From: Crambe crambe
Taxonomy: Eukaryota > Porifera > Demospongiae > Poecilosclerida > Crambeidae
Assembly (NCBI GenBank): GCA_963924555.1
Contig: OZ004596.1
Location: 4,350,139 to 4,414,138, forward strand
Length of the DNA stretch: 64,000 nt
Reading direction: 5' to 3'
The position numbers and the translations under genes are program-made. Under the pieces are notes generated by a model. That model saw only the letters and a program-made list of their open reading frames with translations. It did not search any database and had not been told where the DNA came from. This document shows, one piece after another, positions 23,863 to 34,047 of the stretch. Within the stretch, counting starts at the first letter, position 1. Every line of letters starts with the position of its first letter.

Positions 23863-24406
23863 CAAGTAAGGGAAAAAGCATTTCGTGAAATGAAAAAAGA
23901 TGTAGGGATGACCACTGCTCAAAAAAGTAAGGAAACAAGAAGGATGGAATCTTTGTTCTGTATATCCAGCCAACAATCCCTACATATACGTCGGGTAGCT
24001 TCAGATTATAGTGTAGTAATGTACGTATATGTAGGGATTGTTGGCTGGATATACAGAACAAAGATTCCATCCTTCTTGTTTCCTTACTTTTTTGAGCAGT
24101 GGTCATCCCTACATCTTTTTTCATTTCACGAAATGCTTTTTCCCTTACTTGTTCCTGGTCTTTTTTCCTCTCTTTTATGGTTTTAGCTATGTATAGAGTT
24201 CATTCTTCTATGTGTATGCAGGGACAGATGAAAGAAGAATAGTTCTCCAATAGCATACCAGCCCAATCATTATCAACGAGTCAAGGTGGAGGTAGAAGAT
24301 GCTGAAATAGAGTCTACCTTGTTGAATCTAAATCCCCGAGTCGATACAGTAGTCTATCATCATCATCATTATTCTAGCTACATATACCTATACCTATACC
24401 TAGGAC
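23863..24406. repeat. Hairpin repeat unit, left part, interrupted by the 6.9-kb transposon
   Basis: Two arms of about 125 bp (23865-23990 and 24022-24147) are near-perfect inverted copies around a spacer of about 31 bp. The arm starts AAGTAAGGGAAAAAGCATTT. Unique repeat DNA follows (TTGTTCCTGGTC to TATACCTAGGAC). The same unit recurs at 31316-34080. Long open frames seen on both strands of the hairpin are by-products of the palindrome and do not encode a recognised protein. Confidence 0.8.
24398..24406. repeat. Target-site duplication, left
   Basis: ACCTAGGAC, repeated exactly at 31307-31315 directly outside the other terminal repeat. Confidence 0.85.
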
Positions 24407-24524
24407 TAGTCTGGCGTCGCCAGCCCAGCTTTTCTTCTTTTTTTTTTTTTTTGTTTTTTTTTTGGGACGGGGAAGAAAAGTGGTCTGGGAGCGCTAGCAT
24501 CAACTACTTGTGTCGCCCGCGCGC
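24407..24524 (+). repeat. Left terminal inverted repeat
   Basis: Starts TAGTCTGGCGTCGCCAGCCC, then a T-rich run, GGGACGGGGAAGAAAAGTGG and CATCAACTACTTGTGTCGCC. Pairs with 31201-31306. Confidence 0.85.
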
Positions 24525-24654
24525 TCTATCGAAATAATTAAAAATTGCAATAAACATGCGTGTTGAATAATTTCACGCACACGTGGGTATTTCGAAATCT
24601 TTTCTGTAACTCGGCGCCAGCGGGAAAAAGTCGCAGTTGTTTCTTTGGAGTTGT

Positions 24655-27600
24655 ATGGAGTCAGATTTTTGTGTAGCTTGTGGTGGTCCTGCTCTACCTA
24701 AAAGCAGGAGGGTGGTAAAAGGTGAAATAGGAATGATATGGGCCAAGATTTTCCACAAAGAACTTGAAAGAAGGCAACTACAGCTTAATTTCACCACTAC
24801 CAGAGAGAATTACATGTGTAGGAGATGTCATGGTGGTTATCTCAAGATAGTGGACACTGAGCAGGTAAGATAAGGAGTACTTAAGCATGATTCATGAGCA
24901 ATAATATTCTTGGTTAGGAACTGTCACAAAGAGTTGAAAATGCTGAGTCTGTGATAATCCACAGAAGTAGTTCTGGCATTGTAAGTGCAGCCCATGTAGA
25001 GTACTCCAGCACTTGAAAAAAATTTTCTCATATAAACAGCCAGGTTGCCCTAGTCAGTCCACTAACCAACCCTCTGTCAGTCACTTCAAGGAGACCCCTT
25101 CTCAGACGATCATTTCTCGGCAGCTCCTATCTCAGGAGCCTGCATTGGAGCTCTCATCTCGGGAGCTATCCTCTCAGCAGCTCCCATCTCAGGAGATATT
25201 CTCTCCCCAGCTCTCATCTCAGCAGCAAAGAGAGCGTAAAAGAAGTGCTAGACAAACTCCTCTTTCACCACCTCCTGCAAGACGACTATCACTTCCAACT
25301 ACACCAAGTAATTTGTAGTGAAAATAATTAGGGTCAGCTTATTTCATAGTTCTTGCATTGTGTTACAGGTACTGGCCCACGTAGTGCTGGATTTTTATTT
25401 CCAACTGTCAGGCCCACTAGCATTCCTACTACCACTTCTCCAAGTGTTTCTGTATGTTTCAGCCTGACTTTACTCTGTAGCTAGTCCATATTAATTGTTT
25501 CTATTACAGGTAAACATTGATTATGCATGTGGCACACGGAAATATTCACTAACTCCTAGCAGGCGACACATAGGAAAAGCTGTGGCGAGGAGCAGCAATA
25601 GTGCTCTTGCTACTGAAGCATTGAAGAACCCGACTACAAAGAGATACATTGTCAAGAAGGTGGGTATTCTGTTGCGGAAGGAGTTAGTGAGTATGTGCTC
25701 AGACAAAACCAAGTCTGTGCTGAAAACTTTGAGTCTGGAGGAATTCACTTGGAAGCACTTGATTTCAGAACTATCGACTACTGCCCCCACCCTGTATTCC
25801 TTGCTTTTGTCATGCACACACACTCGGAAACCAAGACAAAACCGTGATGCAGTAATTGGAGTATGCTGTGCAGTCTTACTGAAGTTTCGGTATTCCAAGA
25901 TGAACCTGTGGCAAAAAATCGTGTCTCTTATTCTCTATGCTGGACGAAGTGGAAAAATGGTGAGATTTTTATAGCTAGCTATTATTTATCTATTTTGATT
26001 ACATATTGTTTTGTAGGTTTATGAGCGACTACAAAAGGCAGGGATATGCTTATCACACAGTACTGCATGTAAACTTGTTACAATGCTTGGTGAAGGGCAT
26101 GATACTTTGGTGAAGGAATGGAGGGACCAATTTTCACTGTCTCTGAAAGCTAATCATGAGGTATGAACTGATTGTAATTTTGATGGTAGCTAGCTATAAT
26201 TATGCTTGTTGTTTTTTTTCTAGACCATCAATCAAAGTTCTTCACACCATCAGTCAGCATGGCAGCCATTGTTGCAAGCCAGTGATGAAGAATGGGTTGC
26301 TATTGCTGACTCCATGAGTGATTACAGTTCTGAGTCTTCTAGTGACGATAATACTTCTGAACTTTCAGATAATGATTTTTCTGGCAGTGAAGTTGAAAAT
26401 CTTGATGAAAGTGAGTAATGACGTATTTTTGGTTGTGATAATATTAGCATAACAACTACTTCTATAGTGGATACCTCTGATCTGACTACTTCACCAGATT
26501 GTACCATGGATCAAGATATAGCTATCAGGTGAATACACAAAACCACCGAATATTATTGATTCTGTCTGATTAATTTTCAGGTGCAGCTAGCTTGGAGGGA
26601 GAGTTAGCAGCTGCAAATGAGTCTGGTATGCAGAAGATCTTAACAATTACTTACCTATCAGAGAGTGCGGTAGCACTCTCTATGTAGGGATGACTCGGAC
26701 GGCCGCGCGCGCCACCTATAGACTAATACTAAAGTGAAATTCTAGTTCTCCCACTTAGACCTAACAAAAGCTACTGTAAATTATTATCCAGCCTACTAGA
26801 GCCTACTACAATGTGCAGACCAAGTTTCAGGACCAGGGAGCTTACCGTTTCAGAAATACGGCAAGCAGGTAAATCGCTATATTCTTCTTCTTCTCTATTA
26901 TTATTATTATTAGCCTCTCGAACCACTCAAGCTACAGCCATGATTTCTGGACAAATCCACTCCAAATTCTACCAACTACGATCTTTTCTACTCGTTGATC
27001 CTCGAAAGAATCGATGAAAAAGGAGACACTATGGAGCACAGCACTCGACTAATTCAATTAGGAAGCCATCTTTTCTATAATACGCATGCGCATGTACTTG
27101 AATATCCAATTATTCGAAATCATAATATTACTCAGCTGTCTCTAGATAGCTAGCTAGCTAGCTCTAGCTGATGATAGACTACTGTATCGATTCGGGGATT
27201 TAGATTCATCACGGTAGACTCTATTTCAGCATCTTCGACCTCCAAGTATGGCTCAACAACACAACACCTTGACTCGATAAATGATTGGGCTGGTATGCTA
27301 TTGGAGAACTTCTTTCATCTGTCCCTGCATACACATAGAAGAATGAACTCTAATCATAGCTAAAACCATAAAAGAGAGGAAAAAAGACCAGGAACAAGTA
27401 AGGGAAAAAGCATTTCGTGAAATGAAAAAAAGATGTAGGGATGACCACTGCTCAAAAAAGTAAGGAAACAAGAAGGATGGAAATGGGATCAATCTTTGTT
27501 CTGTATATCCAGCCAACAATCCCTACATATACGTCAGGTAACTTCAGATTATAGTGTAGTAATGTGTGTATATGTAGGGATTGTTGGCTGGATATACAGA

Positions 27601-29575
27601 ACAAAGATTGATCCCATCTCCATCCTTCTTGTTTCCTTACTTTTTTGAGCAGTGGTCATCCCTACATCTTTTTTTTTCATTTCACGAAATGCTTTTTCCC
27701 TTATTGTAATTATTGGTGATACATGCCTAATATGCAGCTCAGCTACCCTCTACCCCCAAGTTTCTAGGATACAAACTTGTAGGTGATAATATTGATAAGG
27801 AGGTGAAGGCAAGATTTATGAGAGTGGATGAGCATCGTGGGCAGTCCCTCCATTATTTCCACTATTGCGCGATCCAGAATCGGGTTGACTTCACAGGCTA
27901 TCCTGATGTCCACCCTGATACATGTCTTGACAGCCCACAAAGAAGAGCACAATTTCTGTTGTCATCTGATGAAGATGACAAGGCTCTTGCCAACAACTTC
28001 ACTATCCTGGTATCAAGAATTTTATATGATAACATGCCATTCTTCAAAGTCACCTTTGATGGGATTGTCACATGGCACATCCAGCATGAGAATACTGTCG
28101 AAATGTCTGTTGTGGTAAGCAATAAATGTGGCTATATGATAATGAATATTAAATTTTAGCTATGGCACTACAAGGTACCTCTTGGAGTTATATTGAAAAA
28201 TGAAAATAAAGGGGATGAGATGGTGGACATCCTCTCAGAACTCCACCAGTATGTCCCCAGTTTTGATTATGGAGAGAAGGTGTATGAAGTGCCATCAGGA
28301 CGAACTTTGACAGTGCCCCAGAGCTGTGTGCGGAGGATATTGGTTGCTGGAGATCAGTTGACTGCTGCCAGAGTGAGGGCAGCTAAGAGAGCTAGGGCAA
28401 ATAGTTTATCAGTAGGAAGTCGCTTAGAAGGGTTAGAACCGACAGCTGCTGACTTTCATGTTCTGCTTAACCTACTTGATGTGAGTTTTCAGAGTAGTGG
28501 TGTGCATTTTTAAGAGTCCTTTTATTGTCTTGCAGGTAGCATGGAAGTATTTTTACTCCACTGATTCTAGTAAAGAACTTGGTACACTTTACCAGTTACG
28601 TAATGTTATTGGGCGTACAAATGTAAATGGTGACCCTGTACACAAGTTCAATGAGTGTGATGATTTTTTTAAGTTGGTGGTGACCTGCCATGTTTTAGTG
28701 GCAGCAATGAAGGTACTGTCTATGGAGTCTCTTGATGATGTACCATTAATCCCTGGCACTGAAATTCCTGCTGGCGATTCATGGATGGAGTCCAATGAAA
28801 AGCGCCGAGAGGTTTTTCAATCTATTTGTGACAGAATAGTCAGTAAATTTGGCCAGTTCAGATTCCAAACAGCTTTGTCGCGTTCATCTGATAAGGTTTG
28901 TCATTTCAGTATTAGTTAAAGTGAGTGATATTTCTGTACATACCGGTAATTATGTAGGTTCATGAGTATGCCACAAAGTTACTAGGCTTTGGGCTATTTT
29001 ATCTTGAACTTCGTGATGCCATCAGGGAAGGTGACGGGCAGCGGGTTCTTAGATGTTGGAAATACTTACTTCTGATATTCAAGAGTTCCAACCGCCACAA
29101 CTACTCTGTAGAAGTTCTTAACATGTTAGCACAATTTTATTATAAGCTCACTCCTCGTGAAGCTCAAGAATTGATTTGGTCCCGATTTGTGAACACCCAT
29201 TCCACTCCCGGGTACAATATTCCAGAGGACCTACATCAGGAGCACCTCAACCGAGTTATAAAAGACTGTATTAAGGGCTTGGCAGCAAACAAGACAGCAG
29301 CTGCAGTGACCAAAGTGGGGAAGGCATTGGGAGCCCTGTATCCCATGCTTGGAAACTATGATGAAGATAATTCTGTGACCAATCCATCAGGACGACATAA
29401 AGTTCCAAACTGGGATAAGGATCACAACTTGGTGATTGACCGGCTCCTGATTGGCGATGTTTTTACACAGAAAAAAGAAAAACGTTATCACCTGAGTTTC
29501 CAGAAACCCAGAGATTTTCTACGTTCAATGAAGCAAGAAGTACTTGTTAACTGGATGGCATCACATTTAAAGTAA
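24655..29575 (+). CDS. DUF6589-type protein, candidate transposase of the element
   Basis: Spliced gene; exons read as 24655-24864, 24918-24980, 25040-25307, 25369-25451, 25510-25959, 26017-26160, 26224-26410, 26468-(26500 or 26528), 26581-26625, 27738-28114, 28160-28480, 28536-28895 and 28958-29575. With the 26500 border all frames join and give about 1,050 residues. The start is ATG 24655 (MESDFCVACG). N-terminal Cys pairs (CVAC, CRRC) look like a zinc knuckle, followed by a short helix and a Ser/Gln/Pro-rich linker. The C-terminal half has landmarks I associate with DUF6589 proteins: GYKLVGDNIDK, FDGIVTW, LVAGDQLTAARVR, LYQLRNVIGRTN, IPEDLHQEHLNR. FDG, AGDQ and the EH of DLHQEHLN could be a DDE-like set, which is inference. 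The weak donor GTACCA at 26501 is needed because the stronger donor at 26529 breaks frame, so a lesion here is possible. It faces the helicase gene tail to tail. Confidence 0.7.
26659..27712 (-). mobile_element. Composite hairpin repeat nested in an intron of the DUF6589-type gene
   Basis: About 1.05 kb, the inverse of 33243-34321. It starts with the self-complementary AGAGAGTGCGGTAGCACTCTCT, passes through a CG-rich stretch (GGCCGCGCGCGCC) and a TTATTA-type microsatellite, and ends in a foldback hairpin (27392-27706). It lies between coding exons 26581-26625 and 27738-28114, so splicing could remove it. The short open frame at 26811-27017 lies inside the repeat and recurs in all copies, so I do not take it as a gene. 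Confidence 0.75.
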
Positions 29576-29628
29576 CTAACAACTCTATATCTCTCTTTAT
29601 ATATAGTAAATGTTTAATCACCAAAAAA

Positions 29629-31082
29629 TTATGTAAGTGGCACAAAAGAGGTATAATTTTTGTCACAATTGGAACATTTACATTGAGTGCGACACAAATC
29701 ACAACACAAACATAGAGGTCCCTCATAAGATCTAACATAATTATCAAAATTACCAAATAAAATGTCTCGCCTGCAAGATGTTCTGTTTGCAAGGTAAGCA
29801 GACATGTTCTCATCTGGAGTTTTGTTCCCTTTGATGCTCTTCTGGATGAGAATAGCCAGACTTTGTGAACCATCACACCCAGCTCTTCCTGTTTCTTGTA
29901 CGTAAGACTCGATGTCACCTGGAGGCCCATAGTGGACTATTTGCCGAACATCAGGGCAGTCAATGCCCATACCGAATGCAATGGTAGCCAAAACTAATCT
30001 TAGTGAGGATTGGCCTCGAAAAATGTGTACTATCTCGTTCTGCACCGCCTCCTCTGTACTACTCTGTACATGTCCACAAGACGAAAACCAGGTAAGTCAG
30101 GTGAACCACTTGGGTAAGTGAAGTCTACACTGAGAAAATCACGAAAGTACAGATACAAGCTTGAAGAGTCATCACATGTTCTGCAATAAATTATTGTTCG
30201 GGTACAGTTGGGCCCATGTTTACGCAATTTCTCAGCCAAAGGTTGAAATGTTTCTTCAATGGACAAGAATATACCATGGAGTAGGTGATGTTTGCCTTGG
30301 AAGGCAGTCGTGCCACTACTACCTCATTATGCATTCCAACAAGCCTTGCAACCTCTTTCCGAAGCAGCTTGCTCGCAGTAGCTGTCAGGGCCATTATATT
30401 AACACTAGGGGGCAACAGACTCCTCACTTCCCCAATCCTTAATAAAATACTTCGAAAAGAATGGCCCCTATACAAAGTAAAAATATATTGGTAAAAGTTT
30501 TACCTACGAAATGGGGTTTATGCTTACCACTTTGCTACTGCATGTGCTTCATCAACAATAAATGCACGAAGGCAAGAAGAATAGACACTGCTAAGAAGCA
30601 CCTTTCGCCACTTCTTGCTTCCAAGGAGCATCTCAGGCGTAAAATATACCAACTGGTAAAGTCCTTGAACAACACCTTTCACAATCTCATCATGCTGTTC
30701 AGCTGTAATGTAACAGGCCTTGACTCCTCGTTCAGAAAGAGAAGATACCTGGAATTCATAGTGCAGGATGGCTCTAAAAAGCACTGTCTTACTGAATACC
30801 TAGCTAGCTAACTTGCTAGAGCTTTTCTTTGATATAGCTACTGACCTGATCTTTAATAATAGCAGTAAGTGGAGTCACCACTACGACAATCGAAGGACCT
30901 TTACAAGGAGCTACTTTATCAAACAGTGATGGCAGACACTGAAAACAGGCGCTTTTTCCGAAACCAGTCGGTAAAACTGCGAACACATCGCCCTTAAAAA
31001 TCGCTTTTACCACTTCCAGCTGTTATGGCTTCACGCCAGGTATTCCTAAGTCTAAAAACACTGCTCTCAATGACTTCTCCAT
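29629..31082 (-). pseudogene. RecQ-type DNA helicase, decayed
   Basis: Superfamily 2 3'-5' helicase of RecQ type. Exons 31082-30846, 30748-30528 and 30467-29629. Visible motifs: I (LPTGFGKSACFQ), Ia (VTPLTAIIKDQ), II (VDEAHAVAKW), III (MALTATASK), IV region (TIIYCRTCDD), V ([20 protein letters not shown]), VI ([10 protein letters not shown]), then a Cys-rich end ([16 protein letters not shown]) like the RecQ zinc-binding region. Lesions: in-frame TAA at 31025-31023 in the motif 0 region (before QLEVV), apparent 1-base losses near 30272 and 30057, and Arg to Cys at the last arginine of motif VI (29877-29875). With two bases added back the exons total a whole number of codons (about 432 residues), supporting two single-base deletions. 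This gene type occurs in many cnidarian and sponge genomes. Here it lies tail to tail with the DUF6589-type gene inside the same TIRs. Confidence 0.8.
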
Positions 31083-31200
31083 TATAGCTCTAAATTGACA
31101 CGTGTCATTATTATGAATAAATCGTGGGTGTGTCTCGCCAACATTGATACTACTTCACGTGACTGAATAGAGCAATCTGATTGGGACGCAGCTATAGCTG

Positions 31201-31306
31201 CGCGCGCGGGCGACACAAGTAGTTGATGCTAGAGCCACCAGACCACTTTTCTTCCCCGTCCCAAAAAAAAAAAAAGAAGAAAAGCTGGGCTGGCGACGCC
31301 AGACTA
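31201..31306 (-). repeat. Right terminal inverted repeat
   Basis: Complement of the left terminal repeat. It differs mainly in the length of the homopolymer run and by a few substitutions around TGGTGGCTCTAGC. Confidence 0.85.
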
Positions 31307-31315
31307 ACCTAGGAC
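31307..31315. repeat. Target-site duplication, right
   Basis: ACCTAGGAC, an exact copy of 24398-24406. It is followed by CTAGCTAGCTAGC as in the uninterrupted hairpin units. Confidence 0.85.
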
Positions 31316-34047
31316 CTAGCTAGCTAGCTAGCTAGAGGCAGCTGAGTAATATTATAATTTCGAATAATTGGATATCAAATACATGCGCATGCGTATTATA
31401 GAAAAGATGGCTTCCTAATTGAATTAGTCGAGTGCTGTGCTCCTTAGTGTCTCCTTTTTCATCGACTCTTTCGAGGATCAACGAGTAGAAAAGATCGTAG
31501 TTCGTAGAATTTGGAGTGGATTTGTCCAGAAATCATAGCTGTAGCTTGAGTGGTTCGAGAGATATGGTTGTCTAAGAAGAATAATAATAAGAAGAAGAAT
31601 AATAACAAGTTGAAAAAAGATGTAGGGATGACCACTGCACAAAAAAGTAAGGAAACAAGAAGGATGGAATCTTTGTTCTGTATATCCAGCCAACAATCCC
31701 TACATATACGTCGGGTAGCTTCAGATTATAGTGTAGTAATGTACGTACATGTAGGGATTGTTGGCTGGATATACAGAACAAAGATTCCATCCTTCTTGTT
31801 TCCTTACTTTTTTGTGCAGTGGTCATCCCTACATCTTTTTTCATTTCACGAAATGCTTTTTCCCTTACTTGTTCCTGGTCTTTTTTTCCTCTCTTTTATG
31901 GTTTTAGCTATGTATAGAGTTCATTCTTCTATGTGTATGCAGGGACAGATGAAAGAAGAATAGTTCTCCAATAGCATACCAGCCCAATCACTATCAACGA
32001 GTCAAGGTGGAGGTAGAAGATGGTGAAATAGAGTCTACCTTGTTGAATCTAAATCCCCGAGTCGATACAGTAGTCTATCATCATCATCACTATTCTAGCT
32101 ACATATACCTATACCTAGCTAGCTAGCTAGAGGCAGCTGAATAATATTATAATTTCGAATAATTGGATATCAAATACATGCGCATGCGTATTATAGAAAA
32201 GATGGCTTCCTAATTGAATTAGTCGAGTGACTTGAGTGCTGTGCTCCTTAGTGTCTCCTTTTTCATCGACTCTTTCGAGGATCAACGAGTAGAAAAGATC
32301 GTAGTTCGTAGAATTTGGAGTGGATTTGTCCAGAAATCATAGCTGTAGCTTGAGTGGTTCGAGAGATATGGTTGTCTAAGAAGAATAATAATAATAAGAA
32401 GAATAATAATAATAATAATAAGGGAAAAAGCATTTCGTGAAATGAAAAAAGATGTAAGGATGACCACTGCACAAAAAAGTAAGGAAACAAGAAGGATGGA
32501 ATCTTTGTTCTGTATATCCAGCCAACAATCCCTACATATACGTCGGGTAGCTTCAGATTATAGTGTAGTAATGTACGTACATGTAGGGATTGTTGGCTGG
32601 ATATACAGAACAAAGATTCCATCCTTCTTGTTTCCTTACTTTTTTGTGCAGTGGTCATCCTTACATCTTTTTTCATTTCACGAAATGCTTTTTCCCTTAC
32701 TTGTTCCTGGTCTTTTTTTCCTCTCTTTTATGGTTTTAGCTATGTATAGAGTTCATTCTTCTATGTGTATGCAGGGACAGATGAAAGAAGAATAGTTCTC
32801 CAATAGCATACCAGCCCAATCACTATCAACGAGTCAAGGTGGAGGTAGAAGATGCTGAAATAGAGTCTACCTTGTTGAATCTAAATCCCCGAGTCGATAC
32901 AGTAGTCTATCATCATCATCACTATTCTAGCTACATATACCTATACCTAGCTAGCTAGCTAGCTAGCTAGAGGCAGCTGAATAATATTATAATTTCGAAT
33001 AATTCGATATCAAATACATGCGCATGCGTATTATAGAAAAGATGGCTTCCTAATTGAATTAGTCGAGTGCTGTGCTCCTTAGTGTCTCCTTTTTCATCGA
33101 CTCTTTCGAGGATCAACGAGTAGAAAAGATCGTAGTTCGTAGAATTTGGAGTGGATTTGTCCAGAAATCATAGCTGTAGCTTGAGTGGTTCGAGAGATAT
33201 GGTTGTCTAAGAAGAATAATAAGAAGAAGAATAATAACAAGTAAGGGAAAAAGCATTTCGTGAAATGAAAAAAAGATGTAGGGATGACCACTGCTCAAAA
33301 AAGTAAGGAAACAAGAAGGATGGAAATGGGATCAATCTTTGTTCTGTATATCCAGCCAACAATCCATACATATACACACATTACTACACTATAATCTGAA
33401 GTTACCTGACGTATATGTAGGGATTGTTGGCTGGATATACAGAACAAAGATTGATCCCATTTCCATCCTTCTTGTTTCCTTACTTTTTTGAGCAGTGGTC
33501 ATCCCTACATCTTTTTTTCATTTCACGAAATGCTTTTTCCCTTACTTGTTCCTGGTCTTTTTTCCTCTCTTTTATGGTTTTAGCTATGATTAGAGTTCAT
33601 TCTTCTATGTGTATGCAGGGACAGATGAAAGAAGTTCTCCAATAGCATACCAGCCCAATCATTTATCGAGTCAAGGTGTTGTGTTGTTGAGCCATACTTG
33701 GAGGTCGAAGATGCTGAAATAGAGTCTACCGCGGTGAATCTAAATCCCCGAATCGATACAGTAGTCTATCATCATCATTATCCAGAGCTAGCTAGCTAGC
33801 TAGAGACAGCTGAGTAATATTATGATTTCGAATAATTGGATATTCAAATACATGCGCATGCGTATTATAGAAAAGATGGCTTCCTAATTGAATTAGTCGA
33901 GTGCTGTGCTCCATAGTGTCTCCTTTTTCATCGACTCTTTCGAGGATCAACGAGTAGAAAAGATCGTAGTTGGTAGAATTTGGAGTGGATTTGTCCAGAA
34001 ATCATGGCTGTAGCTTGAGTGGTTCGAGAGATATGGTTGTCTAAGAA

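Follow-up and report, generated by a model that had tools for sequence, protein, structure and literature searches.

The window analysed here, a stretch of 64,000 nucleotides from the sponge Crambe crambe, contains a bordered DNA transposon of 6,900 bp (positions 24407-31306), which lies between two perfect copies of the 9-bp target-site duplication (TSD) ACCTAGGAC and comprises two convergent genes, a multi-exon gene of the DUF6589 family and a helicase gene (Table 1). The terminal inverted repeats (TIRs) feature a perfect outer arm of 44 bp and an overlapping arm of 82 bp that is 93% complementary, and local alignment pairs 118 nt of the left end with 105 nt of the right end. A preliminary description of this DNA had proposed TIRs of more than 100 bp, a perfect 9-bp duplication defining exact borders, and a convergent pair of DUF6589-type and RecQ-type genes. 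All of this is borne out, with TIRs of about 105-118 bp by local alignment and genes recognized through matches to PF20231, Helicase_C and recQ_fam.

Table 1. Coordinates of the element and its parts in the window.
Feature	Position	Strand	Basis or remark
Left TSD, ACCTAGGAC	24398..24406	.	sequence
Left TIR, starts TAGTCTGGCG	24407..24524	+	alignment of ends
Multi-exon DUF6589 gene, probable transposase	24655..29575	+	sequence, Pfam PF20231, alignment with three relatives, splice-site strings
Nested repeat insertion in intron, 1,046 bp	26656..27701	.	absent from sister copy L042
DUF6589 core exons	27738-28114, 28175-28480, 28536-28895, 28958-29575	+	splice sites inferred
RecQ-family helicase gene, convergent with DUF6589 gene	29629..31080 (upstream limit approximate)	-	sequence, Pfam, NCBIfam
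Right TIR, ends CCAGACTA	31202..31306	-	alignment of ends
Right TSD, ACCTAGGAC	31307..31315	.	sequence

The two genes and their integrity

When spliced, the DUF6589 gene matches the Pfam family PF20231 with an E value of 2.7e-53; three of its exons also match individually, one of which scores below the curated threshold. The first exon displays a CxxC...CxxC pattern by eye and reaches no Pfam family above its cut-off. In comparison with the sister copy L042, which likewise harbors both genes, the window gene is devoid of 9 bp of a motif that is kept in relatives. The nested insertion combines an inverted copy of the element's own high-copy target repeat with a hairpin repeat that has arms of 108 bp, and possibly bears a TAT duplication on its flanks.

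The gene on the opposite strand matches Helicase_C above and DEAD below the respective Pfam cut-off. TIGR00614 recQ_fam is the top NCBIfam model for a helicase exon of 155 aa (E 6.5e-24), and the score of 84.5 bits stays below its full-length cut-off of 219.8, as is expected because the query is a single exon. The same model also ranks first for the exons of two relatives, each again below the full-length cut-off, and the best solved structures for the helicase of a relative (L023) are WRN, RecQ and BLM. Judged by these matches, the gene is that of a RecQ-family helicase. Alignment with L042 reveals two 1-bp gaps that disrupt its frame in the window copy, which is therefore probably not autonomous. 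The helicase of L042, in turn, lacks 88 bp that are present in the window copy. Hence, given the gaps and the missing 9 bp on the one side and the missing 88 bp on the other, it is likely that neither copy is fully autonomous.

Copies of the element and their target sites

A search of the genome, which comprises 143 Mb in 119 contigs, with the leftmost 118 bases of the element yielded at least 41 matches, its own two ends included. The TIR is accordingly not unique, and it recurs in combination with 9-bp TSDs: among 14 two-ended copies, the window element and L042 included, whose ends were examined in the fetched loci, 12 are flanked by an exact 9-bp TSD. Another of these copies (L052) has flanks that agree at eight of the nine TSD bases, and the last one (L049) is without a TSD (agreement at 3/9) and counts against the AcademH-type reading proposed below. 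In a control that combined the left flank of one copy with the right flank of another (182 pairings), the best agreement amounted to 7/9. Seven loci with one end in the fetched stretch (L004, L006, L007, L045, L048, L051 and L053) were left out of this count.

Besides the window element and L042, the two-ended copies measure 457-1,518 bp, with 10 of these 12 in the range of 457-519 bp, and lack the genes because they are too short to contain them. L042, which is located on contig C3, has a length of 5,730 bp and its own 9-bp TSD, AAGATATCG; in alignment with the window element, 5,663 of 5,731 bases are identical (98.8%), with 13 gaps besides. Additional internal ends with the same TIR were noticed in L043 (676-1361), where one copy seemingly lies within or beside another, and the flank of L053 resembles by eye the inverse of the flank of L008, perhaps as part of a duplicated stretch.

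The window element sits inside a high-copy repeat, parts of which form its flanks at approximately 24257-24406 and 31316-31465. When these flanks are joined across one TSD, they match 40 uninterrupted copies of the repeat with 95-99% identity, the 40 being all those scored out of 1,397 candidates, and the target that had previously been called reconstructable is thus recovered. One of the 40 scored copies is found elsewhere in the window, at about 32810-33100. For L042, joining of the flanks with removal of one TSD results in an open frame of 649 aa, the right part of which matches DDE_3, a different transposase. Since 9 bp keep the frame, it is open without this removal as well (652 aa), and the proof of the empty site therefore lies in three uninterrupted relatives with identities of 98, 95 and 86%. 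Uninterrupted target sites thus exist for both gene-bearing copies.

Recurrence of the gene pair and a second lineage

In the genome, PF20231 gives at least 110 exon-level matches, which merge into 81 clusters, and the window helicase exon gives at least 76 matches in 72 clusters. Among the matches listed, 41 of the 81 DUF6589 clusters are accompanied within 1.2 kb by a helicase in tail-to-tail orientation, that is, on the opposite strand and at the 3' side, and none has a helicase in any other arrangement within this distance. The pair of DUF6589 and RecQ genes consequently recurs in the orientation seen in the window. Three same-strand helicase matches beyond 3 kb (one on contig C5, two on contig C9) belong to neighbouring elements. 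On the opposing side, 31 of the 72 helicase clusters among the matches listed lie more than 6 kb away from any DUF6589 match and may represent host RecQ genes or fragments, and 21 of the 81 DUF6589 clusters among the matches listed have neither this partner nor the one described below; both figures are counted against the AcademH-type reading. PF20231 matched in none of 14 control genomes, and no relatives of DUF6589 were confirmed in the viral contigs and genome contigs searched.

A border scan of 20 fetched regions around pairs of DUF6589 and helicase, L042 among them, revealed 9-bp TSDs in seven (L025, L026, L027, L033, L039, L040 and L042) and 10-bp TSDs in three (L023, L024 and L035), each of which would equally fit an 8-bp reading if the ends are moved by a single base. 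In the other ten regions the strict scan delimited no element, which again counts against the AcademH-type reading. The delimited ends start with TAGTCT, the exceptions being L035 (TAGCCT) and one end of L027 (TAGTCA). When left and right flanks were mixed across loci and an AGACTA end was required, 0 of 380 combinations qualified. The gene-bearing element at L035 (1764-7366), with its TAGCCT ends and 10-bp TSD, is seemingly nested in a TAGTCT-ended repeat that has a 9-bp duplication of its own, CCCCGGGCC.

A different partner is encountered in 19 of the 81 DUF6589 clusters (matches listed), which are without a helicase and in which a region related to L041:2-1969 is found in the same orientation at a distance of 138-716 bp downstream; none of the DUF6589 clusters among the matches listed has both partners. 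In 12 of these 19 clusters, both listings give an open frame of equal length (e.g., 1,861 aa on C5), which fits one continuous frame. An example of this lineage spans 6046-6052 kb of C5, with its end in L041:1-2393, and one right end was located near L041:2393. Another is situated around 1942-1948 kb of C18. The motifs EEAD, TPDTD, GCDY and GIG, noticed by eye, may be akin to the XPG/FEN nuclease pattern, and the region is accordingly referred to as nuclease-like. In L041 it was recognized neither by Pfam, PHROGs and NCBIfam nor by a phmmer search of the PDB, and no relatives of it were confirmed in viral contigs. Moreover, the XPG_I profile has three matches in the genome, none of them near a DUF6589 cluster; that all 19 loci are missed by this profile speaks against an XPG reading, or at least lends it no support.

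The probable transposase and the affiliation of the element

In an alignment of four divergent DUF6589 cores, from the window and three relatives, the acids of the GDN and GDQLT motifs are conserved. The E of 'NYALEAL' is a Q in L037, so that no firm third catalytic acid emerges, and this is counted against a DDD/E reading. A profile of the four cores found none among the solved structures at E values up to 10, and the four Pfam families matched by the cores at E values up to 10 include no transposase family, in a search in which HMMER filters drop weak matches. DUF6589 is nonetheless very probably the transposase of the element, and the earlier proposal that DUF6589 proteins are transposases working with a helicase is probably right in outline; the catalytic activity of DUF6589 and the part played by the helicase are what we infer. 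Homology to the Academ transposase and an RNase-H fold are putative further properties of DUF6589.

According to the proposed cut-and-paste mechanism, the DUF6589 protein would act as a DDD/E-type transposase that binds the TIRs, cuts the element out and attaches the two ends to target strands with a stagger of 9 bp, in some cases 10 bp, and this staggered joining would give rise to the 9-bp duplication. The RecQ helicase would be accessory and would probably unwind the ends or an intermediate of excision or repair. The short copies, which share the TIRs and are too small for the genes, would move in trans.

AcademH, which belongs to the Academ superfamily, was reportedly described by Kojima in 2020 (Mob DNA 11:15) and is known here through citing papers. 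With a probability of about 0.9, the window element represents a DNA transposon of the AcademH type, its place within Academ being deduced from the helicase and the TSD lengths. In the accessible part of one citing paper, AcademH is stated to encode a helicase and to generate TSDs of 9 or 10 bp, AcademX is stated to generate TSDs of 3 or 4 bp, and this difference is linked to the presence of a helicase or a nuclease (PMC10045372). Excerpts of other sources cite a RecQ helicase in Academ (PMC3627910), report that Academ copies of fungi contain DEAD/DEAH and recQ_fam domains (PMC6416283) and put the average length of Academ in bivalves at 5,565 bp (PMC10294476). The earlier view that no described superfamily combines the DUF6589/RecQ pair with a 9-bp TSD is hence not supported, as helicase and TSDs of 9-10 bp match AcademH and RecQ in Academ has been published. 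The element type is thus already described, and the annotation link from PF20231/DUF6589 to Academ was not found in the literature searched. PF20231, to which Pfam assigns an 'unknown function', probably represents the core of the Academ transposase, and many genes annotated as DUF6589 would consequently be transposon genes.

The lineage with the nuclease-like region is possibly an AcademX-type sister lineage. The chances appear evenly divided that one genome harbors two sister lineages whose DUF6589 transposase is the same and whose partner is either a convergent RecQ helicase or a fused nuclease-like region, never both, such that the Academ catalyst common to them would be DUF6589 and the size of the stagger (9-10 versus 3-4 bp) would be determined by the exchanged accessory enzyme. 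If this is true, PF20231 ceases to be a family of unknown function, and the occurrence of both partners in one genome would render the accessory effect on the target stagger testable.

An alternative that we regard as improbable is an undescribed superfamily of DNA transposons that came to have 9-bp TSDs and a RecQ helicase merely by convergence. It would accord with the lack of a detectable match of the DUF6589 cores to a known transposase profile and with the literature searched, in which the word DUF6589 was not found and papers containing the string PF20231 are, by title, not about transposons. However, the type of helicase and the TSD lengths of 9 and 10 agree with the accessible accounts of AcademH and Academ (PMC10045372, PMC3627910, PMC6416283), the length of the element is near the bivalve mean given in the excerpt of PMC10294476, and the second DUF6589 lineage with its other partner would resemble the split into AcademH and AcademX, provided that this partner is a nuclease.

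It is less probable still, and indeed very unlikely, that DUF6589 is passenger cargo of an element moved in trans by another transposase: its catalytic triad is a candidate one, as such a scenario would allow, but DUF6589 is the part common to the helicase-paired clusters and those with the other partner, and the frames of at least 180 aa that lie wholly inside L042 are exclusively DUF6589 and helicase exons.

Kolobok elements duplicate TTAA at their target, from which the window family and its relatives differ by TSDs of 9-10 bp with varied sequence, and neither MULE nor Kolobok is among the four Pfam families matched at E values up to 10, with HMMER filters dropping weak matches; on the grounds of the TSDs and of the missing transposase match, a helicase-bearing element of the Kolobok or MuDR kind was set aside as barely conceivable. 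Resemblances exist in that a combination of a DDD/E transposon with RecQ is found in KolobokH, that the rhodophyte Kolobok-1_CCri bears RecQ on the complementary strand as in the window element (accessible part of PMC9587614 for both), and that maize Mu has 9-bp TSDs (excerpt of PMC2774946).

AcademX finds a likeness in the DUF6589 clusters of the same genome that are followed on the same strand by the nuclease-like region, a candidate nuclease, and differs from the window element in that a TSD of 3-4 bp and a nuclease stand against 9 bp and a helicase. In contrast, no difference in TSD or helicase was found between the window element and AcademH as known from citing papers, and both features of the latter, a helicase and TSDs of 9 or 10 bp, are shared by the window family and its relatives.
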